From assembly GCA_019637225.1 (NCBI GenBank), contig JAHBWC010000035.1, positions 1 to 64,000 of the forward strand: DNA of 64,000 nt, in the 5' to 3' direction. This DNA comes from Labilithrix sp. (lineage in GTDB: Bacteria; Myxococcota_A; Polyangia; Polyangiales; Polyangiaceae). The position numbers were made by a program, and so were the translations under genes. The notes under the pieces were generated by a model. It worked only from the letters and a program-made list of their open reading frames with translations, was not told the DNA's origin and did not search any database. Below, in pieces: positions 52,514 through 63,577 of this stretch (position 1 is the first letter of the stretch; the number at the start of each line of letters is the position of its first letter).

Positions 52514-53575
52514 TCAGCCCGCGCGCGACGAGCGCGCCGGCGGGGGCTCGGCGGTGGGCGAGGCGTCCGCGGACGGAAGCTCGCCGCGGCGACGGAGCGA
52601 GAGGAACGGGAAGACACCGAGCAAGCACGGAACGATCTGCCCGAGCAGGTACACGTTGAACACCGTCGCGCCGCCGGCGAGGCCGATCGCCTCGAAGAGG
52701 CGCTTGAAGGCGACGTGGCCGACGCCGAGGCCGGAGGGCGAGATCGGGAGCACCAGGGTGAGGAGGCCGAGCGGGAAGACCGTCGCGACGGACGAGTACG
52801 GCACGTCGCGCTGGAGCAGCGCCTGGGTGAGCACCGTGAAGAACGCCATCCCGAGGCCGTGGAACGCCATCGAGAGGCCCAGGGCGATCACGAGGCGACG
52901 CGGACCCGCCGAGAGCAGGCGCATCGAGGCGACGAGCTGGTTCAGGAGCTTGCTGAGCTTCGACGGCCCGCTCGTGTAGGCGTCGAGCCGGTCGCCCGCC
53001 CTCTGCACGATCACGAGGGCGATCGCGCCGCCGATCAGCGTCGCCGCGCCGAGGGCCGCGACGACGGAGGCGAGGGGACGGAGCAGGGGATCCGACCAGA
53101 TCCCTGGCCGTACCACCGTCACGAGCGTCCCCATCAGCACGAGCGCGGTGAGGCCGAGGAGGCGCTCGACGAAGGCCACGAGGAGGATCGTGGTCCGCTT
53201 CTCCTTCGGCGCGTCGCGCGCGACGTAGAGCGCCTTGACCACGTCGCCGCCGACGTTGCCGGGGATGACGACGTTGAAGAAGAAGGCCGTCATCTGCAGG
53301 CGGAGCACGGTGAAGACGGGCACCGTGACGTCGGCGAGGCCGAGCAGGACGCGGAAGCGCAGCGTGGCGACGACCGCGCCCACCGCGAAGAGGCCGAGGT
53401 CCATCGCGAGCAACGACGGGCGGTCGATGAGGATGCGCAGCGCGCCGGCGTCGAGGTTTCCGCTCCGCACGAGCCAGCCGATGAGGAGGGCGGCGACGAG
53501 CGCCTTCGCGGCGAAGAGGACGAGGCCCTTCGCGCGCGACGGCGGAGCCTTCGACGAAGGCGCGGTCGAGCTCAT
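52514..53575 (-). CDS. Flippase-like membrane protein (UPF0104/AglD2 family)
   Basis: A 353-residue inner-membrane protein with about eight helices, matching the lysylphosphatidylglycerol synthetase transmembrane family (MprF flippase domain, AglD). Landmarks are MTAFFFNVVIPGNVGGDVVKAL, SMAFHGLGMAFFTVLTQALL and PISPSGLGVGHVAFKRLFEA. Relatives move lipids or lipid-linked sugars across the membrane. ATG 53575 starts the protein. It lies divergently from the aminotransferase gene of the sugar cluster, so it may flip that cluster's product. Confidence 0.85.
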   Translation of the reverse strand: MSSTAPSSKAPPSRAKGLVLFAAKALVAALLIGWLVRSGNLDAGALRILIDRPSLLAMDLGLFAVGAVVATLRFRVLLGLADVTVPVFTVLRLQMTAFFFNVVIPGNVGGDVVKALYVARDAPKEKRTTILLVAFVERLLGLTALVLMGTLVTVVRPGIWSDPLLRPLASVVAALGAATLIGGAIALVIVQRAGDRLDAYTSGPSKLSKLLNQLVASMRLLSAGPRRLVIALGLSMAFHGLGMAFFTVLTQALLQRDVPYSSVATVFPLGLLTLVLPISPSGLGVGHVAFKRLFEAIGLAGGATVFNVYLLGQIVPCLLGVFPFLSLRRRGELPSADASPTAEPPPARSSRAG

Positions 53576-53885: not shown

Positions 53886-55004
53886 ATGCCCGTTCCTTTC
53901 ATCGACCTGACCCGCATCGTCGCCCGCGTCCGTGATGACGTGCTCCCCGCGTGGACGGAGTGCCTCGACCGCTGCGAGTTCGTCGGTGGCCCGCGCGTCG
54001 GCGCCCTCGAGAAGAAGCTCGCCGGCGTGCTCGGTGTGCCCCGCGTCGTGTCGTGCGCGAACGGGACGGACGCGCTCCTCATCGGCCTCCAGGCGCTGGG
54101 GGTCAAGGCGGGGTCGAAGGTCGCGCTGCCGAACCTCACGTTCTGGGCGACGTTCGAGGCGATCGTCCAGCTCGGCGCGACGCCCGTGCTCGTCGACGTC
54201 GATCCGGACGATCTCCAGGTGAGCCTCGACGAGCTCCGGTCGGCGCACGACGCCCACCGGTTCGACGCGGCGATCCTCGTGCATCTCTTCGGCTGGACGT
54301 CGGCGCGGCTCGGCGAGATCCGCGCGTTCTGCAAGGAGCGCGGCGTGGCGCTGCTCGAGGACGGCGCGCAGTGCTTCGGCGTCGAGGTCGGCGGCGAGCC
54401 GGTGCTCGCGAAGGCCGACGTCGCGACCCTCTCGTTCTACCCCGCGAAGGTGGTCGGTGGCGCCATGGACGGCGGCGCGATCACGCTGCAGACCGAGGCC
54501 GCCGAGGCGCGCGTTCGATCGCTCTGCAACCACGGGCGCTCGGACCACTACGCCTACGCGCACGTCGGGTGGAACTCGCGCATGGGCGGCGTCCAGGCGG
54601 CGTTCATCCTGCGTGTCCTCGACGAGCTGCCGGCGATCCTCGCCTCGCGCCGCGAGGCCGCCGAGTACTACCGCGCGCGGCTGACCGGGGAGAACAAGCG
54701 CGTGAAGGTCTACGGACCGCCGGCGGGCGTGCTCGAGAACGGCTACCTCAACGTCGTCACCGTCGAAGGCAAGAAGGGCGCGGAGCTCGCCGACGCGCTG
54801 AAGAAGGCCGGCATCGGCGCGGCGCGCACGTATCCGGAGACGATGGACGTCCAGCCGCCGGTCAAGCAGACGGGCGCGATCGCGCACGGCGATCTCGCGG
54901 TCTCGAAGCGCTTCTGCGAGTCGGTCGTGAACCTGCCGCTGTTCTACGGCATCCGCGACGACGAGCGCGAGGCATCGGCGACCGCGCTGCTCGCTGCGAT
55001 CTGA
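53886..55004 (+). CDS. DegT/DnrJ/EryC1 sugar aminotransferase
   Basis: A 372-residue PLP enzyme. The family opening (PFIDLTRIVARVRDDVLPAW, CEFVGGPRVGALEKKLAGVL), cofactor pocket ANGTDALLIGLQALG, ALLEDGAQCFG and the PLP lysine in SFYPAKVVGG are all present, as is the late HVGWNSRMGGVQAAFI. Such enzymes transfer an amino group onto a nucleotide-linked keto-sugar. With the LpxD-like acyltransferase downstream and the Gfo/Idh oxidoreductase at 62.5 kb it resembles WlbC/WlbE or GnnB, which make 3-amino sugars. ATG 53886 has GGGAG 6 nt upstream. Confidence 0.92.
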   Translation: MPVPFIDLTRIVARVRDDVLPAWTECLDRCEFVGGPRVGALEKKLAGVLGVPRVVSCANGTDALLIGLQALGVKAGSKVALPNLTFWATFEAIVQLGATPVLVDVDPDDLQVSLDELRSAHDAHRFDAAILVHLFGWTSARLGEIRAFCKERGVALLEDGAQCFGVEVGGEPVLAKADVATLSFYPAKVVGGAMDGGAITLQTEAAEARVRSLCNHGRSDHYAYAHVGWNSRMGGVQAAFILRVLDELPAILASRREAAEYYRARLTGENKRVKVYGPPAGVLENGYLNVVTVEGKKGAELADALKKAGIGAARTYPETMDVQPPVKQTGAIAHGDLAVSKRFCESVVNLPLFYGIRDDEREASATALLAAI

Positions 55005-56061: not shown

Positions 56062-56865
56062 ATGAGCGCGAGAAACCACCCGAACGAGCCTGGAGCCTGG
56101 GACGCCGACTTCAGCTACCGGTACCTCGCGGAGCTCTACGCCGTGCTGCGGAGCGACTTCGCCCCCACGCTCGTCGGGGACGCCGCCGAGGTCGCGGGGC
56201 CGGACGACGGCCCGCCGCGCGCCTTCGTCCGGCACGACATCGACGTGTCGCTCGAGCGCGCCCTCCCGCTCGCGCGCCTCGAGCAGCGGTGGGGCGTCGG
56301 GTCGACGTACCACGTGATGCTCGAGTCGCCGTTCTACGACGTCCGCTCGGCGCGCTCGCGCGAGGCGCTCGCGGAGATCGCCTCCCTCGGCCACGAGGTC
56401 GGGCTCCACTACGACGTGAGCGCGCGCGGGACGCGGGACGCCGACAGCGCCGCGCGCGAGCGTGACATCGCGCGCGCGTGCGGAGAGCTCGAGGAGATCA
56501 CGGGCGCGCCGGTCCGCTCGCTCTCGTTCCACCTCCCGGTGAAGGAGCTGATCAACGGTCCGCTCCGCGTCGCGGGACGCGTCAGCGGCTACGCCAGCGC
56601 CCTGTTCGCCTGGTACATCTCCGACTCGCGCGCCCGCTGGCGCGAAGGTGCGCCGCTCGCGAGCCTCCGGCGGCCGCGCGCGAGGCAGCTCCAGATCCTC
56701 ATCCACCCGATCTGGTGGGGCGAAGAGCACGTGCACCCGACGATTCGCTTGCGCGACTTTCTCCGCGAGGTCCAGCCGGTGCTCGGCGGCACCTACGCAG
56801 AGCTGAACGACAAGCTCTGGGACCACATCATCTACAGCGCCGCGGACGCCCCCGCGGAGGCCTGA
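56062..56865 (+). CDS. Polysaccharide deacetylase-like protein
   Basis: A 267-residue protein of the NodB/CE4-like superfamily. It has the first motif as FVRHDIDVSLERALPLARLE (D-x-D), a middle GHEVGLHYDVS (corresponding to the HxxxH region, one His replaced), and late LQILIHPIWWGEEH. These marks occur in a subgroup (WalW-like) found in surface polysaccharide loci; some may be inactive or hydrolyse other amide bonds. ATG 56062 starts it. It is 4 nt upstream of the glycosyltransferase gene, so they are cotranscribed. Confidence 0.8.
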   Translation: MSARNHPNEPGAWDADFSYRYLAELYAVLRSDFAPTLVGDAAEVAGPDDGPPRAFVRHDIDVSLERALPLARLEQRWGVGSTYHVMLESPFYDVRSARSREALAEIASLGHEVGLHYDVSARGTRDADSAARERDIARACGELEEITGAPVRSLSFHLPVKELINGPLRVAGRVSGYASALFAWYISDSRARWREGAPLASLRRPRARQLQILIHPIWWGEEHVHPTIRLRDFLREVQPVLGGTYAELNDKLWDHIIYSAADAPAEA

Positions 56866-56869
56866 CGCG

Positions 56870-57604
56870 ATGGCCTACACGCTCGTCCTGCCGTTCCACA
56901 GCGACCTCACGTCGATCGGCGAGACCGTCCGCCGCGCGCGCGAGGAGGGCGGGCCCGTTCACGGGGTCCGCGAAGTGGTGCTCGCGCACAACGGCAGGCC
57001 GCTGTCCCCCGAGGCGCAGGCGAAGGTGGACGCGCTCGTCGCGCCGCGCGACGGCAAAAAGCCCGAGGTGCGATTCGCCGACACGACCGACAAGGGGATC
57101 GGCGCCGGCTACAAGCTCGGGATCCGCGAGGCGCGCGAGCCGTTCGTGATCCTCTCCGCGGACGATCTGCCCTTCGGGTGGTCCGACGTGATCGCGTTCG
57201 AGCGGGCCGGGCGCCCGGACTTCGCGATCGGCTCGAAGGCGCACCCGGAGTCGAAGCTCGTGGGCGTCACGAAGATGCGCCGCGCGTCGTCGCTCACGTT
57301 CTTGACGCTCCGGCGGCTATTGCTCGGCGCCGCGACGCCGGGCGACTCGCAGGGCAGCTTCATCCTCCGTACGTCGGTCGCGCAGGCGCTCGCCCCGGAG
57401 CTCGTCTACGACCACTACCTCTGCTCGCTCGAGCTCGCGACCCTCCACCTCGAGCGGGGTGGCCGCGTGGTGGAGGTGCCGATCGTGGTCGACCACAACC
57501 CGCACCAGAGCTCGGTCTCGGTCGTCAGCGACGGTTGGCGGATGGCGAAGGAGCTCGTCGAGCTGCGGCAGCGGATACGCCGGCGCCGCGTCAGGTCCAG
57601 CTGA
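56870..57604 (+). CDS. GT2-type glycosyltransferase-like protein
   Basis: A 244-residue cytoplasmic or membrane-associated transferase with a GT-A fold: LVLPFHSDLTSIGETVRRAR, GIGAGYKLGIREAREPFVILSADDLPFGW (with the D-D metal motif), and KMRRASSLTFLTLRRLLLGA. The final segment VVEVPIVVDHNPHQSS is like dolichol-phosphate-sugar synthases. It probably adds a sugar to a lipid carrier or to the cluster product. The last 14 nt overlap the convergent luxC-like gene. Confidence 0.8.
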   Translation: MAYTLVLPFHSDLTSIGETVRRAREEGGPVHGVREVVLAHNGRPLSPEAQAKVDALVAPRDGKKPEVRFADTTDKGIGAGYKLGIREAREPFVILSADDLPFGWSDVIAFERAGRPDFAIGSKAHPESKLVGVTKMRRASSLTFLTLRRLLLGAATPGDSQGSFILRTSVAQALAPELVYDHYLCSLELATLHLERGGRVVEVPIVVDHNPHQSSVSVVSDGWRMAKELVELRQRIRRRRVRSS

Positions 57605-58874
57605 TCCAGCGGACGAAGCGGTCGCAGGCGAACAGGCCGTCCCAGGGCTGGTCGTAGACGTTCATCAGCCCGAAGCGGACGAGGCGCGAGACGCCCTTCC
57701 GGGCGAGCGCCTCGGCGAGCGTGCCCGCGAGCGCGGCGTCGTCGACGAGCATCCCGATGGTCTGCACCTGCGGCGTCACGATCGGGACGACGTCCTCGAG
57801 GCTCGCGACCGCGCGGACGAAGAGCGTCCGCGACTGGACGCCCTCGGAGAGCACCGGGCCGTCGGCGTCGACGAGCACCGTGTAGTCGACGGAGCTCGAC
57901 GCCATGACGTCGCGCTGCTCGTCGAGCCCGTAGTCGGTGCGGAGCCGGAGGATCGCCGCGGCCGTGCCCTCGGCGATGGCGCGCTTCGGCGCGCGCTTCG
58001 TCTGCTTGGCGAGCTCGTTGGCGATCCTGCGGGCGAAGGCGCGGGCGTCGTCGAGAGCCCCCTCGACGTAGAGGATGTGCGGCGAAGAGCAGGCCGCCTG
58101 ATCGAAGAGGAGGACGTCGCGCACGAGCGATCGCGCGACGGCCGCGCCCTCTTCGCCGCCCTCCGCGACGCGCCGCCGCCCGGCCGCGTCGACGAGGCCG
58201 AGCGAGAACTTCGGGCCGAAGACGATGTCCTCGCAGTGCTCGTGGCGCGGGAGCGCGAGGACCGTCGCGAGCGTCTCCTGCCCGCCCCAGACGACGCGCG
58301 CGTCGGCGCGGAGGGAGAGGGCGGCGTGGAGCGCGCGGTCCTCGCCGGGAAAGTAGAAGAACGACGCGCCGTCGAGGAGGTCACGACCCGAGAGCGCGGC
58401 GCCGGCGCTGTCGGTGATCGAGCTCTCCTCGAGCGCCGCGAGCAGCCGCCGGACCACGGCGAGGCTCTCCTTCGGCACGCGGACGAGGTTCACGTTCTTC
58501 ACGAGCGCCGAGAGCACGAACGAGAAGATCGCGAGGGTGGGGATGTTGCCGGCGATCCACTGCGCGACGACGCCGCGCGGCGCCGCGCGGAGCCTCTGCG
58601 ATCCGTCGGCGACGAAGGCGTCGAGCGCTTCGGCGCGGCCGCCGAGGCTCGCGCGCACCATCGACTCGAGGCTCTTCTTCCGGAGCCAGGTGACGAGGAA
58701 CGCGATCCCCTCGACGTCGCCGAACGCCGGCGTCGCGAGCTTGGCCGCGAACGCGTCGAAGAGCCGGTAGAGATCGTCCGTGCGGCGCGCCGCGGCCGGC
58801 CCGGCGGCGCGGGTCACACGGTCGGCCTCGGCCGCGAGGCTCGCCGCGTCGATGCGCTCGTGGACCCGGCTCAT
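57591..58874 (-). CDS. luxC: Acyl-CoA/acyl-ACP reductase (LuxC family)
   Basis: A 427-residue aldehyde-forming reductase of the LuxC family. The active cysteine C262 lies in FDQAACSSPHILYVEG, the family signature, and the NADPH fold includes VVAQWIAGNIPTL and VVWGGQETLATVLALPRH. In luminous bacteria LuxC with LuxE and LuxD makes the fatty aldehyde for luciferase; no luciferase genes are here. The start codon overlaps the luxE-like stop (ATGA), so both are made together, as in the Lux fatty-acid reductase complex. The product is predicted to be a long-chain aldehyde for surface lipid or glycoconjugate synthesis. Confidence 0.92.
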   Translation of the reverse strand: MSRVHERIDAASLAAEADRVTRAAGPAAARRTDDLYRLFDAFAAKLATPAFGDVEGIAFLVTWLRKKSLESMVRASLGGRAEALDAFVADGSQRLRAAPRGVVAQWIAGNIPTLAIFSFVLSALVKNVNLVRVPKESLAVVRRLLAALEESSITDSAGAALSGRDLLDGASFFYFPGEDRALHAALSLRADARVVWGGQETLATVLALPRHEHCEDIVFGPKFSLGLVDAAGRRRVAEGGEEGAAVARSLVRDVLLFDQAACSSPHILYVEGALDDARAFARRIANELAKQTKRAPKRAIAEGTAAAILRLRTDYGLDEQRDVMASSSVDYTVLVDADGPVLSEGVQSRTLFVRAVASLEDVVPIVTPQVQTIGMLVDDAALAGTLAEALARKGVSRLVRFGLMNVYDQPWDGLFACDRFVRWISWT

Positions 58875-60004
58875 GCGCCGACCACCCGCTTGGCCGCGAA
58901 GGTGTCGCCGCAGCCGCGGATCTCGGCCTGCGCGACGCGCGACCGGATCCGGAAGTGACGTCCGCGCCGCCCGCAGGGGCAGCCGTCCTCGCCGACGAGG
59001 ACGCCGACGTCGTCGGTCAGGAGCGCCTGGCCGGGGTAGCTCTCCGGCAGGACGCTGAGCACCTCGATGAGGCCGGCCTCGCCCGCGCGCACGCGCTCGA
59101 GCGTGAGCGGATCGCGCAGGAGCACGTCGGCGAAGTCGGGCGGGTGCTTGTGGCCGGCCGCGCAGTCGACGAAGACGACGCCCACCTGCTCGGCCATGCC
59201 GTAGAAGTCGAGGACGTGGCTCGCCGGCATGCCGAAGGCGACCGCGGCCTCGGCGGCGAACGTGTCCTTGTCGACGGCTTGCTCGGTGAGCTTCTTCCAA
59301 CCGCCGCTGTGGAGGAGCATCGCTCCCGGCGCCGGACCGAAGCGCGCCCCGCCCTTGCCGAGCGCGTCGAGCACGACGCTCCAGACGATGAACGTGAAGC
59401 CGAAGAGCAAGGGAGACCTGTCCCTGTTCTTCTCGAAGAAGGCGCCGATGCGCGCCTCGTTCGGCGTGAGCTTGCCGTCCGGCTGGAGGTCGAGGGCGTA
59501 CGTGACCTCCGACGCGAAGGGGAGGAGCCCGCGGATCGCCGCGCCGCGCGCGCTGAGGCTGCTCGTCGCCGCGTTCGACTCGGCGGCGTCGAGGACGAGG
59601 TACGGGCGGCGCGTCTTGCCGACGACGTCGGCGAGCGTCGCCGCGAGCGCCTTGGCCTGGCGGAAGCTCGTCGGCTTGTCGATGTGGATCCGGCTCGGGG
59701 TTCCGCTCGTCGTCGCGCTCGACGTGACGACGCGGACGACCTTGTCCGCGGGGACGCTCCGCAGCTCGAACTTCTTGAACGCGGAGACGTGGATCCACGG
59801 GACGTCTTCGTAGCGCGCGCGCGGGCCTTCGCCGAAGCCGAGGCGCTCGACGAGGCGCGCGAACGCGGGGATGGCCGCGGCGTGGCGGGCGCTCTGGGCG
59901 CTCAGGATCGCGCAGAGGCGGCGCTCTTTGTCGGCGGGATCGAGCCGGAACTGCGGCTGATCGATGAGCGTGAGGACCTCGGCCTCGTGTGTGCTCGCAT
60001 CCAT
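58871..60004 (-). CDS. luxE: Acyl-protein synthetase (LuxE family)
   Basis: A 377-residue adenylating enzyme of the LuxE family. The nucleotide loop is VTSSATTSGTPSRIHIDKP, and the late YGMAEQVGVVF and GLIEVLSVLPESYPGQALLTDDVG with GCPCGRRGR are typical. LuxE activates a fatty acid as acyl-AMP and passes the acyl group to LuxC. ATG 60004 begins the usual N-terminus; GGGGTGAAG lies just upstream. It follows the acyl ligase by 4 nt and overlaps luxC by 4 nt. Confidence 0.92.
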   Translation of the reverse strand: MDASTHEAEVLTLIDQPQFRLDPADKERRLCAILSAQSARHAAAIPAFARLVERLGFGEGPRARYEDVPWIHVSAFKKFELRSVPADKVVRVVTSSATTSGTPSRIHIDKPTSFRQAKALAATLADVVGKTRRPYLVLDAAESNAATSSLSARGAAIRGLLPFASEVTYALDLQPDGKLTPNEARIGAFFEKNRDRSPLLFGFTFIVWSVVLDALGKGGARFGPAPGAMLLHSGGWKKLTEQAVDKDTFAAEAAVAFGMPASHVLDFYGMAEQVGVVFVDCAAGHKHPPDFADVLLRDPLTLERVRAGEAGLIEVLSVLPESYPGQALLTDDVGVLVGEDGCPCGRRGRHFRIRSRVAQAEIRGCGDTFAAKRVVGA

Positions 60005-60008
60005 CGCT

Positions 60009-61493
60009 TCACCCCGTCCGATCGCCCCGCGCGAGCTCCCGGAGCGTCGCCCGTGCAAGCTTACCCGCTGCCGTCTTCGGGAGCGCGTCGACGAACACGG
60101 TCACGCGCGGCTGGATGTGCGGGAGGAGGGCGCGCTTGCAGTAGGTCTCGAGGTCCGGCCGCGCCGCCTCGCCGCGGCCGTGGACGACGAACGCCTGGAC
60201 CGCCTCGCCCTGCAGCTCGTCGGGGATCCCGACGACCGCGGCCTCGACCATCCCGTCGAACGCGGCGAGGACGTCTTCGATCTCCTTCATCGCGACGCGG
60301 TAGCCCGCGCACTTGAGGAAGTCCTTCGCGCGATCGACGAGGATGAAGAACCCGTCGTCGTCGACCTTGCCGAGGTCGCCCGTGTAGAGCGCGCCGTCGC
60401 GGAAGGTCTCGGCCGTGGCCTCCGGCTCGTCGAGGTAGCCGAGGGCGACGTTCTTGCCGCGCGCGACGAGCTCGCCGACCTCGCCGCGCGGCACCGGCGC
60501 GCCGTCCGGGCCGACGAGCTCGAGCGTGACGCCGGCAATGGGCTTCCCGATCGTGTGCGCCTTGTCGGCGAGGTGCCTCGGTTCGAGGCACGAGAGCCGC
60601 GCCGTGGCCTCCGTCTGCCCGTACATCAGCCAGATCTCCGTCCCCGGCAGGCGCTCCTCGAGCTCGCGCACGAAGTTCGGCGGCAGCCGCCCGCCCGCCT
60701 GCTGGACGTAGCGGAGCCTCGGGAACGTCATCGTCGCGAGGCTCGAGCGCCGGAGGAGGAGCTGGTAGGTGCTCGGCACGCCCGCGAAGCTCGTGCACTC
60801 CTCACGCTGCATCTCCTCGAGGACGCGGTCGGCGAACATGAACTGGTTGTTCATGACCACGGAGGCGCCCGCGCGCACGTGCGTGAAGAGCACCGACGCG
60901 CCGAAGGAATAGTAGAAGGGCAGGACCGCCATCATCCGGTCGGTCTCGCGGATGGGCAGGCTGGCGAGGATCGAGCTCGTGTTCGCGACGATGTTCTCGT
61001 GCGAGAGCACGACGCCCCGCGGCTCGCCGGTGCTGCCGGACGTGAAGAGGACGAGCGCCGGATCGCTCGGCGCGGTCTCCGCGGCGGGAGCGTCCGACGG
61101 CGCCGTCGCGTCGAGCTCGGCCTTGCCGTAGACGAACGCGCTCGGGCAAAGCTCGGCGGCCGTCGTCGCCGCGCGCGCCTCGGCGAAGATCGCGACGGGC
61201 TTGGCGCGCGCGAGCATGCGCGCGAGCCTCGGCGCCGGATCGCTCGCCGGAAGCGGGACCGCGGTGGCGCCCGCGAGGAGCGCCCCGACGAGGGCGGCGG
61301 CGGCGTCGGGCGTGTTCGGCGAGATCGAGGCGACGCGATCGCCCGGCGCGACGCCGCGCGCGCGGAGGTGCGCGGCGACGGCGAGCACGCGCGCGCGCCA
61401 CTCGGCGTGAGAGAGGTGCTTGCCCTGCTGCGCGAAGGCCGGGGCGTCGGGACGCCGCTCGCTGCCTTCGAGGAGCCAGCCCGCCGCGTTCAC
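60009..61493 (-). CDS. AMP-dependent acyl-CoA/acyl-ACP ligase
   Basis: A 494-residue adenylate-forming enzyme. Motifs LFTSGSTGEPRGVVLSHENI, MYGQTEATARLS, YTGDLGKVDDDGFFILVDRAKD and the C-terminal catalytic lysine region PKTAAGKLAR are intact. It is shorter than long-chain acyl-CoA synthetases and resembles the ligases that load acyl carrier proteins in lipid or polyketide starter pathways. Its GTG start overlaps the stop of the acyl carrier protein gene (GTGA), so it probably loads that carrier. Confidence 0.9.
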   Translation of the reverse strand: MNAAGWLLEGSERRPDAPAFAQQGKHLSHAEWRARVLAVAAHLRARGVAPGDRVASISPNTPDAAAALVGALLAGATAVPLPASDPAPRLARMLARAKPVAIFAEARAATTAAELCPSAFVYGKAELDATAPSDAPAAETAPSDPALVLFTSGSTGEPRGVVLSHENIVANTSSILASLPIRETDRMMAVLPFYYSFGASVLFTHVRAGASVVMNNQFMFADRVLEEMQREECTSFAGVPSTYQLLLRRSSLATMTFPRLRYVQQAGGRLPPNFVRELEERLPGTEIWLMYGQTEATARLSCLEPRHLADKAHTIGKPIAGVTLELVGPDGAPVPRGEVGELVARGKNVALGYLDEPEATAETFRDGALYTGDLGKVDDDGFFILVDRAKDFLKCAGYRVAMKEIEDVLAAFDGMVEAAVVGIPDELQGEAVQAFVVHGRGEAARPDLETYCKRALLPHIQPRVTVFVDALPKTAAGKLARATLRELARGDRTG

Positions 61494-61723
61494 GCGGCCG
61501 ACTTGGACTCGCAGATCGCGACGATCTTCTGGACGCTATCCATGTCCATGACCTCGTTCACCTCGAACTCGACCCCGAACTGCTCTTGCAGCGCGGTGAC
61601 GAGGGTGAGGTGCCCGAGCGAGTCCCAGCCCTGGACGTCCTCCGGCATCATCTCGACGCTGAACTTGTCGGGCTCGACGCCGAACGCGGAGACGAACGCT
61701 GCTTTCACCTTGTCGACGACCAT
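61490..61723 (-). CDS. Acyl carrier protein
   Basis: A 77-residue acyl carrier protein. The phosphopantetheine serine is S35 in QGWDSLGHLTLVTAL, and the acidic helix II/III pattern (EVNEVMDMDSVQKIVAI) is typical. GAGGAG is followed by ATGTCC and then ATG 61723; it sits directly against the upstream ATG 61729 but 6 nt before ATG 61723, so the latter is the start. It is the second dedicated gene of the operon after the SDR and lies 10 nt from it. It would carry the acyl chain processed by the ligase, SDR and LuxE/LuxC. Confidence 0.93.
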   Translation of the reverse strand: MVVDKVKAAFVSAFGVEPDKFSVEMMPEDVQGWDSLGHLTLVTALQEQFGVEFEVNEVMDMDSVQKIVAICESKSAA

Positions 61724-61733
61724 GGACATCTCC

Positions 61734-62462
61734 TCAGAGTCCCACGCCGCCGTCGATGACGACGGAGGCGCCGGTCATGTAGGCCGCGTCGTCGGAGAGG
61801 AGGAACTCGACGAGCCCCGCGACCTCCTTCGGCTGCCCGATCCGCTTCATCGGCACCTTCTTGCCGATCATCGCGAACATCATCTTGTCCATCAGCGTCG
61901 TCTCGATCGTGCCGGGGCAGATCGTGATCGCGCGGATGTTCTTGTCGGCGTACTCGAGGGCGATCGACTTCGTGAAGTTCTCGACGCCGGCCTTGGCCGC
62001 GCCGTAGGCCGCCATCTTCGGCGAGGCCTTCTGCCCGCTCACCGAGCCGAGGTTCACGACGAGGCCGCGCTGCTGCGCGATGAACGTCGGCAGGAGCGCG
62101 CGGGTGACGTAGATCGTCCCGAGCAGGATCGTCTCGACCTGCGCGAGGAGGTCGGCGTCGGCGAGGTCGTGGGTGGCGCTGAACTTGAGCAGGCCCGCGT
62201 TGTTCACGACCGCGTCCACGGTCCCGACCTTCGCCACGGCCTCCTGGATGACCTCCTTCACGCGCGCGCCGTCGCGCACGTCGCAGACGAACGGCAGGAG
62301 CCTGTCCGGGTGCGCCGCCGCGAGCGCGTCGAGCTCGTCCTTCGAGCGGGCGAGCCCGACGATGCGGTGGCCCTTGCCGATGAGGCGCTCGGCGACCGCC
62401 TTGCCGATGCCGCGGGTGACGCCTGTGACGACGACCGTCTTCGCGGGAGAATCCGTAGTCAT
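61734..62462 (-). CDS. FabG-like short-chain dehydrogenase
   Basis: A 242-residue classical SDR. TGVTRGIGKAVAERL binds the cofactor, NNAGLLKF and catalytic Ser (NLGSVSG), Tyr and Lys (YGAAKAGVENF) follow, and the end ASVVIDGGVGL is the FabG type. It probably reduces a 3-keto acyl group on the carrier protein encoded next, or the aldehyde or a sugar keto group in this pathway. ATG 62462 is the start. Spacing to the acyl carrier protein gene is 10 nt. Confidence 0.9.
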   Translation of the reverse strand: MTTDSPAKTVVVTGVTRGIGKAVAERLIGKGHRIVGLARSKDELDALAAAHPDRLLPFVCDVRDGARVKEVIQEAVAKVGTVDAVVNNAGLLKFSATHDLADADLLAQVETILLGTIYVTRALLPTFIAQQRGLVVNLGSVSGQKASPKMAAYGAAKAGVENFTKSIALEYADKNIRAITICPGTIETTLMDKMMFAMIGKKVPMKRIGQPKEVAGLVEFLLSDDAAYMTGASVVIDGGVGL

Positions 62463-62515: not shown

Positions 62516-63577
62516 TCAGAGCCAGGTGGCGTCGGCGGTGATCGGCGGCCGGGCGGCGGACGGCGCCGGACGCTCGGTCTTGCGCGCCGCGGCCGCCATC
62601 GCGCGCTCGGCGGCGAGCACCGCCGCGAGCGCGTCCTCGCCGAGGCAGAGCTCGCCAGCGTCGCCGTCGCGGAGGTACGCGGCGAACTGCTTCAGCTGGA
62701 TGAGCAGCGGCTCCTCCTTCGTCACGCCGAAGACGACGCGGTCGGTCGTGCGGTAGTGCTCCTGGATCGACTCGAAGCTCTCGACGCGGGCCGGCTCGAT
62801 GCGCTGGGTGAGGTTCCCGCCGTAGAGCTCGCAGCTCTGGAGGATGTAGTCCATGAAGCAGACGCCGCGCGTGCCGGTGACGCGGAGCGTGCGGATCTTC
62901 GTCGGGGTGACCCAGTTGACGTGGACGCTCGCGGTCGGTCCCGCGGCGGACTCGAGGACGATCTCCGCCGTGTCGAGGACGCCGGGGCGGAAGGACGAGT
63001 GCGCGGTGCTCGCCTCGACGCGAACGGGGCCGACGAGGCTCCGGAACGCGTCGATGTCGTGGACGGCGAGGTCGAGCAGGACGTTGTTCCCCTCGAGGAT
63101 GGTCTCCGGGTAGCCGCCGACGCGCGTGAAGCTGAAGTGGATGGGGTCGCCGAGCCACCCGCCGCGGATGATCTCGCGGAGCTTGCGGACGACGGGGTTG
63201 AAGCGCTCGACGTGGCCGACGGCGATCTTCACGCCCGCGGCGGCGGCGGCCTCGAGGACCTCGCGTCCGTGCGCGAACGTGCTCGCGATGGGCTTCTCGA
63301 CGAGCACGTGCTTCTTCATCTTCACGAGCTCGAGCACGACGTCGCGGTGCGTCGCGGTCGGCGTCGCGACGATGGCCGCCTCGAAGTCGACCGACTTCAA
63401 GCTCGCCACGTCGTCGTAGAAGGTCGCGTTGCCGCCGGGCGCCGAGGGCGGCGGCCTCTTGGCGGTCGGATCGACGACACCGACGAGCTCGAAGTCGGAC
63501 GACTCGCTCGTGAGGCGGAGGTGATTGCGGCCCATGCGGCCGATGCCCAGGAGGACGACGCGGAGTTTCTTTCCCAT
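62516..63577 (-). CDS. Gfo/Idh/MocA-family sugar oxidoreductase
   Basis: A 353-residue NAD(P)-dependent dehydrogenase. The Rossmann motif is LGIGRMGRNHL (GxGxxG), with the family EKP in HVLVEKPIAS and the catalytic-region VHDIDAFRSLVG. The C-terminal half is the family's alpha/beta domain. WlbA and GnnA, which oxidise the 3-hydroxyl of UDP-GlcNAc(A), belong here, and the aminotransferase at 53.9 kb could use the resulting keto-sugar. It is the first gene of the minus-strand operon, 53 nt upstream of the SDR. Confidence 0.88.
   Translation of the reverse strand: MGKKLRVVLLGIGRMGRNHLRLTSESSDFELVGVVDPTAKRPPPSAPGGNATFYDDVASLKSVDFEAAIVATPTATHRDVVLELVKMKKHVLVEKPIASTFAHGREVLEAAAAAGVKIAVGHVERFNPVVRKLREIIRGGWLGDPIHFSFTRVGGYPETILEGNNVLLDLAVHDIDAFRSLVGPVRVEASTAHSSFRPGVLDTAEIVLESAAGPTASVHVNWVTPTKIRTLRVTGTRGVCFMDYILQSCELYGGNLTQRIEPARVESFESIQEHYRTTDRVVFGVTKEEPLLIQLKQFAAYLRDGDAGELCLGEDALAAVLAAERAMAAAARKTERPAPSAARPPITADATWL

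Follow-up and report, generated by a model that had tools for sequence, protein, structure and literature searches.

The window analysed here is a stretch of 64,000 nucleotides from Labilithrix sp. (GenBank assembly GCA_019637225.1, contig JAHBWC010000035.1), and forms part of contig C112 of a host genome (G000) of 8.2 Mb that is 83% complete. On its minus strand, at 57591-62462, the window carries a block of five genes in the order SDR, acyl carrier protein (ACP), acyl ligase, LuxE and LuxC. The block is real and did not arise by chance, because the nearest relative, Myxococcales bacterium 68-20 (L005), keeps it at 82-92% identity together with the surrounding Gfo/Idh, GT2-like, LpxD-like and DegT genes, and because the five genes occur together in 32 of the 70 LuxE loci that we compared. 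We propose, with about an even chance of being right, that the block is a laterally transferred module for the activation and reduction of a short-chain acid that has become attached to an amino-sugar locus; we infer its substrate, the order of its steps, the acceptor and the transfer itself. The genes of the block are as follows:

61734-62462, minus strand: FabG-like SDR oxidoreductase that opens the block, proposed to reduce an aldehyde or keto group (PF13561, adh_short_C2, 187.5 bits)
61490-61729, minus strand: dedicated ACP with the phosphopantetheine site WDSLGH (PF00550, PP-binding, 29.4 bits)
60009-61493, minus strand: AMP-forming acyl ligase, proposed ACP loader (PF00501, AMP-binding, 269.7 bits, and PF13193)
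58871-60004, minus strand: LuxE-type acyl-protein synthetase (PF04443, 177 bits; PDB 7xc6 chain E, E=2.8e-10)
57591-58874, minus strand: LuxC-type acyl reductase (PF05893, 221.4 bits; PDB 7xc6 chain A, E=2e-12, with the cysteine aligned)

From SDR to LuxC the intergenic distances are +4, -4, +4 and -4 nt, so that the tight coupling and the exact coordinates proposed in the first-pass annotation are borne out. That annotation had described the LuxC-LuxE reductase as fused into the operon and did not name a Gfo/Idh gene (63577-62516) lying 53 nt upstream on the same strand; in the window the five genes are separate and overlapping, and none is fused. All five exceed the curated Pfam cut-offs and their catalytic residues are intact. 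Throughout the 32 five-gene loci we found the LuxC cysteine, the cysteine of the LuxE RGC motif, which we take to be the acylated one, and the W, D, S and H of the ACP motif WDSxxH to be invariant. The SDR catalytic Tyr is kept in all 32 loci and its Lys in 31, the ligase TSGSTG motif in 30-32 and the ligase C-terminal Lys in 31.

A scan of genome contigs with LuxE yielded the first 22 loci. LuxE matches with E <= 4e-37 were present in 7 of the 183 genomes of the window's order, and any match with E <= 0.001 in 146 of them; weak LuxE-like matches are common in this order and the weakest are possibly other adenylating enzymes. Matches over threshold were found in 6 of 369 genomes of the class of G198 (threshold 1e-20) and, at 1e-25, in 14 of 344 genomes of the phylum of G188, 8 of 337 of the class of G202 and 23 of 341 of the class of G185. 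Seventy loci, which took in part of the matches from these wider scans, were run through one profile set with neighbours counted within 7 kb of LuxE and one label given per reading frame; L062 and L063 (G144 and G145), with strong LuxE matches and from the same order, were left outside the set for their differing context. Besides the 32 five-gene loci, the ACP-ligase-LuxE-LuxC quartet without SDR was found in 13 loci, and neither arrangement in the remaining 25. The latter include two loci that hold all five genes (L006 and L011), bringing the five-gene total to 34 of 70 when counted, and two with ACP, ligase and LuxE-LuxC (L158 and L159), all four having fallen there because natural fusions are hidden by the one-label rule. 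LuxE is fused to LuxC in L006 (4488-6950), L158, L159 and L160, and the ligase to LuxE in L011 (8399-11050). The carriers of the block are bacteria, archaea and plasmids. The commonest order, holo-ACP synthase (ACPS)-ACP-ligase-LuxE-LuxC-SDR, was seen in 15 loci, 13 of them archaeal, and the order ACP-SDR-ligase-LuxE-LuxC in nine bacterial loci, one with LuxC on the opposite strand; the order of the window is common only to the window and L005, and other loci vary.

Pairwise identities of ACP, ligase, LuxE and LuxC co-vary between loci (Spearman 0.65-0.87; none of 499 Mantel shuffles as high), and those of the SDR follow this core with rho of 0.32-0.49 (again none of 499 as high); the test excluded the window-L005 pair and did not remove shared ancestry. 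The co-variation suggests a core of four genes to which the SDR is an exchangeable addition. In a LuxE tree the window and L005 occupy a deep branch of their own, which is weakly grouped (92/87) with five clostridial quartets (L007 and L153-L156) and most archaeal five-gene rows, while L164, L167 and further loci from the window's family (L059, L060 and L061) are placed elsewhere. Such a tree would fit repeated lateral transfer.

In the pathway that we propose, the ligase would attach a short acid to the dedicated ACP by one of its carboxyls; the likeliest acid is a C4 dicarboxylate, malate or succinate for example. LuxE would then activate the remaining carboxylate and hand it via its own cysteine to that of LuxC, which would use NAD(P)H to turn it into a semialdehyde, and the SDR would reduce the semialdehyde to an omega-hydroxyacyl-ACP. 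With this donor an LpxD-like or PglD-like acyltransferase could finally amidate an amino sugar, which in the window would be UDP-GlcNAc-3-amine formed by Gfo/Idh and DegT. L-malate reduced at C4 in this way would yield 2,4-dihydroxybutanoic acid. A dicarboxylate handled at both ends is suggested because two ATP-dependent carboxylate activations, by the ligase and by LuxE, are encoded in one operon. The first-pass annotation had envisaged a chain loaded on the carrier and reduced to an aldehyde; a pathway on a carrier protein, with LuxE and LuxC as the acid reductase, is retained here, and a long chain is disfavoured.

The evidence favours a short acid over a fatty acid. The latter alternative has a long acyl chain loaded and converted to a fatty aldehyde or alcohol, from which a glycolipid ('liposugar') would be made; we consider it unlikely. 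The LuxC and LuxE families are named for fatty-acid reduction, an LpxD-like acyltransferase lies nearby, FabD is present in bacterial carriers, and papers on Aeromonas, Enterobacteriaceae and Dickeya assign the set to fatty-acid synthesis or to a liposugar, all of which would agree with a fatty aldehyde. This aldehyde, which in the first-pass annotation might enter a glycolipid, is nevertheless made less likely by two results: the archaeal carriers show no detectable FabD, and six clostridial loci lie in a C4 context. In addition, the window proteins fall far short of the bioluminescence equivalog models (LuxC 80.2 bits for a cut-off of 750, LuxE 44.8 bits for a cut-off of 550).

Searches for FabD (TIGR00128) and PF00550 covered the genomes behind the first 22 loci. 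The 11 archaeal carriers among them, of unstated completeness, gave no FabD match, and among 14 control genomes the ten with a match included no archaeon. Each of the 11 archaeal carriers has a single PF00550 match, which by its coordinates is the ACP of the block in ten of them; in the eleventh (L021) the contig starts inside LuxE and the ACP lies on another contig. A small protein is encoded within the block of 12 loci (10 archaeal), in most of them directly before the ACP gene. A scan of one identified it as a holo-ACP synthase (PF01648), and the others cluster with it; 10 of the 11 archaeal carriers have a holo-ACP-synthase-like gene in the block. The tested archaea thus appear to keep an ACP and its putative activating enzyme for the block pathway.

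The C4 context was found in six clostridial quartet loci (L153, L154, L155, L156, L164 and L167), in which an AbfD homologue lies about 2-7 kb off. The L153 copy matches PDB 1u8v, deposited as a dehydratase/isomerase of gamma-aminobutyrate metabolism and presumably 4-hydroxybutyryl-CoA dehydratase, with E=3e-248, and the homologues in the other five loci are 81-90% identical to it. A relative of the butyryl-CoA:acetate CoA-transferase TIGR03948 is present in five of the six loci, the two scanned copies being under the cut-off; the exception is L154, whose stretch is cut inside AbfD. Some of these loci are also near thiolase, 3-hydroxyacyl-CoA dehydrogenase, acyl-CoA dehydrogenase/ETF or MaoC genes. 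A sigma-54 activator is found in five of the six and also in Clostridium tyrobutyricum (L007), where the stretch contains no AbfD match. A malate/lactate dehydrogenase beside the L007 quartet was considered as support for malate and dropped, since it had no match in the other loci.

These neighbours raise the alternative that the block serves C4 carbon metabolism of the 4-hydroxybutyrate type, unrelated to the sugar genes and merely parked beside them in the window. Such a role would account for AbfD near six clostridial quartets and the CoA-transferase near five, and it could be extended to the window through the weak grouping of its LuxE branch with most archaeal five-gene rows and five clostridial quartets, four of them linked to AbfD. 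However, no AbfD-like match was obtained in non-clostridial loci (69 loci searched, the window not among them), sugar genes lead the scanned neighbours of the five-gene loci, and in the window Gfo/Idh lies only 53 nt upstream in the same orientation. We hold this reading to be very unlikely.

The neighbour tallies cover 155 of 206 flanking frames and draw on 30 of the 31 five-gene loci outside the window, with the 25 commonest families of each set counted. GT4-type (10), GT1-type (9) and GT2 (9) glycosyltransferases were the commonest in the set of 71 and GT2 (9) in the set of 84, followed by epimerase/dehydratases (nucleotide-sugar enzymes) and methyltransferases. The survey of the block and its neighbours in other genomes, suggested with the first-pass annotation, found all five genes in 32 of 70 LuxE loci, and sugar genes lead among the neighbours scanned. 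In 17 of the 32 loci a left-handed beta-helix (LbH) acyltransferase accompanies the block. Eight of the 32 (L010, L014, L061, L069, L140, L141, L161 and L162) are a variant with a split transketolase, the N and C halves being two genes, which suggests chain extension of the LuxC aldehyde. Because a transketolase needs an aldehyde acceptor, these partners also suggest a polar aldehyde, which argues further against a fatty one.

The transketolase could instead be an end user of a free product. According to this alternative the product of the quartet is a short aldehyde or alcohol released in free form, ACP and ligase only feed LuxE and LuxC, the aldehyde is used by the SDR or the transketolase, and no acyl group passes from ACP to sugar. 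The split transketolase in 8 of 32 loci would suit it, as would the 13 of 70 loci in which the quartet has neither SDR nor LbH within 7 kb, and the ligase-LuxE and LuxE-LuxC fusions suggest a single relay. The LbH acyltransferase in 17 of 32 five-gene loci speaks against it, as does the tetronate precedent, which ends in an amide, and we judge a free aldehyde to be an unlikely explanation.

The first-pass annotation had correctly reported no luciferase genes: at E<=1e-10 the 83% complete host genome contains no match to the luciferase family PF00296. We extended this search to 31 of the 32 five-gene genomes or records (L070 left out) and saw no luciferase in the stretch around any block. PF00296 occurs somewhere in 17 of the 31, and in those whose contigs could be assigned the closest match lies some 112 kb off (G552); for L023 (G201, 32 PF00296 matches) the contig number was not established and coordinates were compared with the frames by eye. 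A block mostly beside luciferase genes, which by the first-pass annotation would have refuted its own interpretation, was thus not what these records showed, and a link to luciferase was rejected. As to wax-ester genes, the other setting that would have spoken against that interpretation, wax synthase was sought by motif only; among 388 long frames from the 32 loci three contained HHxxxDG, and these were judged spurious by eye. No LuxD was seen beside the window block, a genome-wide search for LuxD not having been made. The same genome carries a second, very divergent LuxC-LuxE pair on contig C9 (9993-12711; L064, 9723-14254), with an 89-aa gene between the two and an alpha/beta hydrolase adjoining LuxE; this pair resembles a luciferase-less luxCDE fatty-acid reductase more than the window block does.

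The block of the window is situated in a glycan locus, the neighbouring genes of which are listed below:

62516-63577, minus strand: Gfo/Idh oxidoreductase (PF01408), a possible 3-dehydrogenase of nucleotide sugars, lying 53 nt upstream of the SDR
56870-57604, plus strand: weak GT2-like protein (PF00535, E=0.004, below cut-off), convergent with LuxC and overlapping the LuxC stop by 14 nt
56062-56865, plus strand: protein without family assignment or Pfam match, deacetylase-like by eye only; a 57% identical gene adjoins the LpxD-like gene in L184
55071-55949, plus strand: LpxD-like LbH acyltransferase (NF002060, 178.5 bits, under the cut-off of 207; best solved relatives LpxD)
53886-55004, plus strand: DegT sugar aminotransferase (PF01041, 244 bits; best solved relative WbpE)
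52514-53575, minus strand: LPG_synthase_TM membrane protein (PF03706, 97.8 bits); one is also found near the sugar genes of L184

Gfo/Idh, DegT and the LpxD-like gene thus surround the block. The four plus-strand genes, from DegT to the GT2-like gene, converge on it, with LPG_synthase_TM beyond, and L005 has no match to the gene at 56062. The placement against sugar genes made in the first-pass annotation holds, as it does in many relatives. No flagellin was present among the scanned flanking proteins, a search aimed at flagellin not having been made. The best NCBIfam model for Gfo/Idh is NF040723, UDP-GlcNAc 3-dehydrogenase (a model named for archaea), at 209 bits for a cut-off of 450. The LpxD-like protein reached 168.5 bits with TIGR01853 (cut-off 242.5), and a better LpxD match was found on contig C106 of the same genome (224 bits, compared with 144 for the window copy, both under the cut-off). 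By these scores the window gene is a paralogue, and a housekeeping role in lipid A was rejected for it on account of the C106 match.

Comparison with a genome of the same genus (G126, contig C51; L184, 5461-11221) identified counterparts of Gfo/Idh (62% identical), DegT (75%), the LpxD-like gene (59%) and the 56062-type gene (57%), with a double SDR and an LPG_synthase_TM gene nearby. As G126 keeps these sugar genes without the block core, the amino-sugar genes appear to be resident, the block having been added to them. The comparison supports a shared amino-sugar pathway and weakens the view that the LpxD-like protein must depend on the block's ACP.

Several observations weigh against the short-acid module as we propose it. 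The L184 stretch has no match to ACP, ligase, LuxE or LuxC; the LpxD-like enzyme therefore need not use the block's ACP, and transfer to the sugar by this acyltransferase is the weakest step of the proposal. A glycan role is not universal, because clostridial quartets retain both ligase and ACP although their scanned neighbours include no sugar-polymer gene. Furthermore, the AbfD-linked quartets are split between two distant regions of the LuxE tree, with L153-L156 on the side of the window and L164 and L167 outside it. Even among five-gene loci DegT is near only 12 of 32 and Gfo/Idh near 5 of 32. Co-variation of LbH with the core is weak (0.14-0.41, with 1 to 65 of 499 shuffles as high, in 16 loci), and the window SDR is about 31% identical to the nearest block SDRs, the sister L005 aside. 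FabD is present in 10 of the 22 carrier genomes searched, all bacterial by title, that is in 10 of 11 bacterial carriers, the lone miss being a Simkania-labelled record. The control Methanosarcina acetivorans has a PF00550 match and no LuxE match, so that a lone carrier protein does not set the archaeal carriers of the block apart. Finally, one point in favour of the module is ambiguous: the flagellin glycan of A. piscicola AH-3, where the five genes are present, is reported to end in an unassigned 102-Da group, which dihydroxybutyryl (C4H6O3, computed mass 102.03) would suit, but 102 Da is a nominal value that other formulas also fit.

A wider and more tentative proposal, which we put forward as possible, is that the quartet is a hitherto unrecognised carboxylate reductase, tethered to a carrier and acting on short dicarboxylates, that has passed between bacteria and archaea and would supply omega-hydroxyacyl groups for amino sugars and C4 units in clostridia. 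The 'fatty acid' and 'liposugar' annotations of flagellin islands would then be wrong and the 102-Da group of Aeromonas would be dihydroxybutyryl. If small hydroxyacyl groups are made, the published annotation as fatty-acid synthesis is in error; an unexplained flagellin mass in Aeromonas would become testable, and some archaea would own an ACP pathway independent of fatty-acid synthesis. The gene set recurs in published flagellin islands, polysaccharide loci, plasmids and methanogens.

LuxE matches were found in 39 plasmid records, five of which were examined; the plasmid loci for the most part agree with a glycan setting. A plasmid of Deinococcus NW-56 carries glycosyltransferases and a sugar transferase followed by ACP-SDR-ligase-LuxE-LuxC and a PglD-type acetyltransferase. 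On a Rhizobium anhuiense plasmid we found a transketolase pair, an annotated acyl-ACP--UDP-GlcNAc O-acyltransferase, ACP, ligase, DegT, LuxE, LuxC and SDR, and on a Ponticoccus plasmid the five-gene set with no annotated sugar genes in view. Another setting of the LuxE family occurs on 14 Priestia plasmid records; in the one examined (L071, Priestia megaterium plasmid NZ_CP085443.1) it comprises AMP-binding genes, an FAD oxidoreductase, a carrier protein, LuxE, an Fe-S scaffold and a cysteine desulfurase.

Our literature search, which most subscription journals lay outside, found no enzyme assay of the five-gene set in the text it could reach. A query for archaeal ACP and LuxE returned no paper, and one for dihydroxybutyric acid and lipopolysaccharide only apparently unrelated papers.

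The window block shares both Pfam families and the aligned LuxC catalytic cysteine with the bioluminescence LuxC-LuxE complex (PDB 7xc6), and differs from it in lying far below both equivalog cut-offs in a genome where no luciferase was found. We also liken the presence of Gfo/Idh, DegT and LbH in one locus to the GnnA/GnnB or WbpB/WbpE/WbpD 3-amino-sugar pathways; compared with the GnnA/GnnB type, the window Gfo/Idh and LbH score below the curated cut-offs of their models.

The first-pass annotation knew of no characterised pathway with exactly this combination. The combination is in fact already known, since the same five families are described in the group II polar-flagellin islands of Aeromonas (98 strains): ACP, 3-oxoacyl-ACP reductase, AMP-dependent synthetase, luxE and luxC (orf1-orf3-luxE-luxC), said to channel fatty acids to a fatty aldehyde, perhaps for a liposugar (PMC7874193). 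Like the window block these genes sit in a sugar island; their context is that of flagellin and pseudaminic acid, and the likeness is one of families, sequences and gene order not having been compared. Variants are reported in enterobacterial flagellin islands, with LuxE in 73 and LuxC in 80 strains together with Acp, CaiC and FabG (PMC4875605), and in Dickeya, where the same set is joined by two transketolases (PMC7575072, PMC4522980). Acp, CaiC/FadD, FabG, LuxE and LuxC are thus shared, and the TktA and TktB of Dickeya parallel the transketolase of 8 of our 32 loci; in contrast, the sugar neighbours are others and the papers describe these sets as fatty-acid synthesis.

The closest functional parallel to the short-acid module that we favour is the O1 antigen of V. 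cholerae, in which tetronate is reported to acylate perosamine, ending in an amide (PMC3441752). Activation of 2,4-dihydroxybutanoic acid, for transfer to CoA or the carrier RfbK, is ascribed to RfbL (PMC12208996). Of the rfbK-rfbO products, the ligase RfbL and the carrier RfbK parallel the ligase and ACP of the block. A ligase, a carrier protein, a LuxE/LuxC-type reductase, a dehydrogenase and an acyltransferase, as in the tetronate pathway, would have analogues in the window, where the SDR would replace an iron-dependent alcohol dehydrogenase, the likeness being one of function and not of compared sequences.

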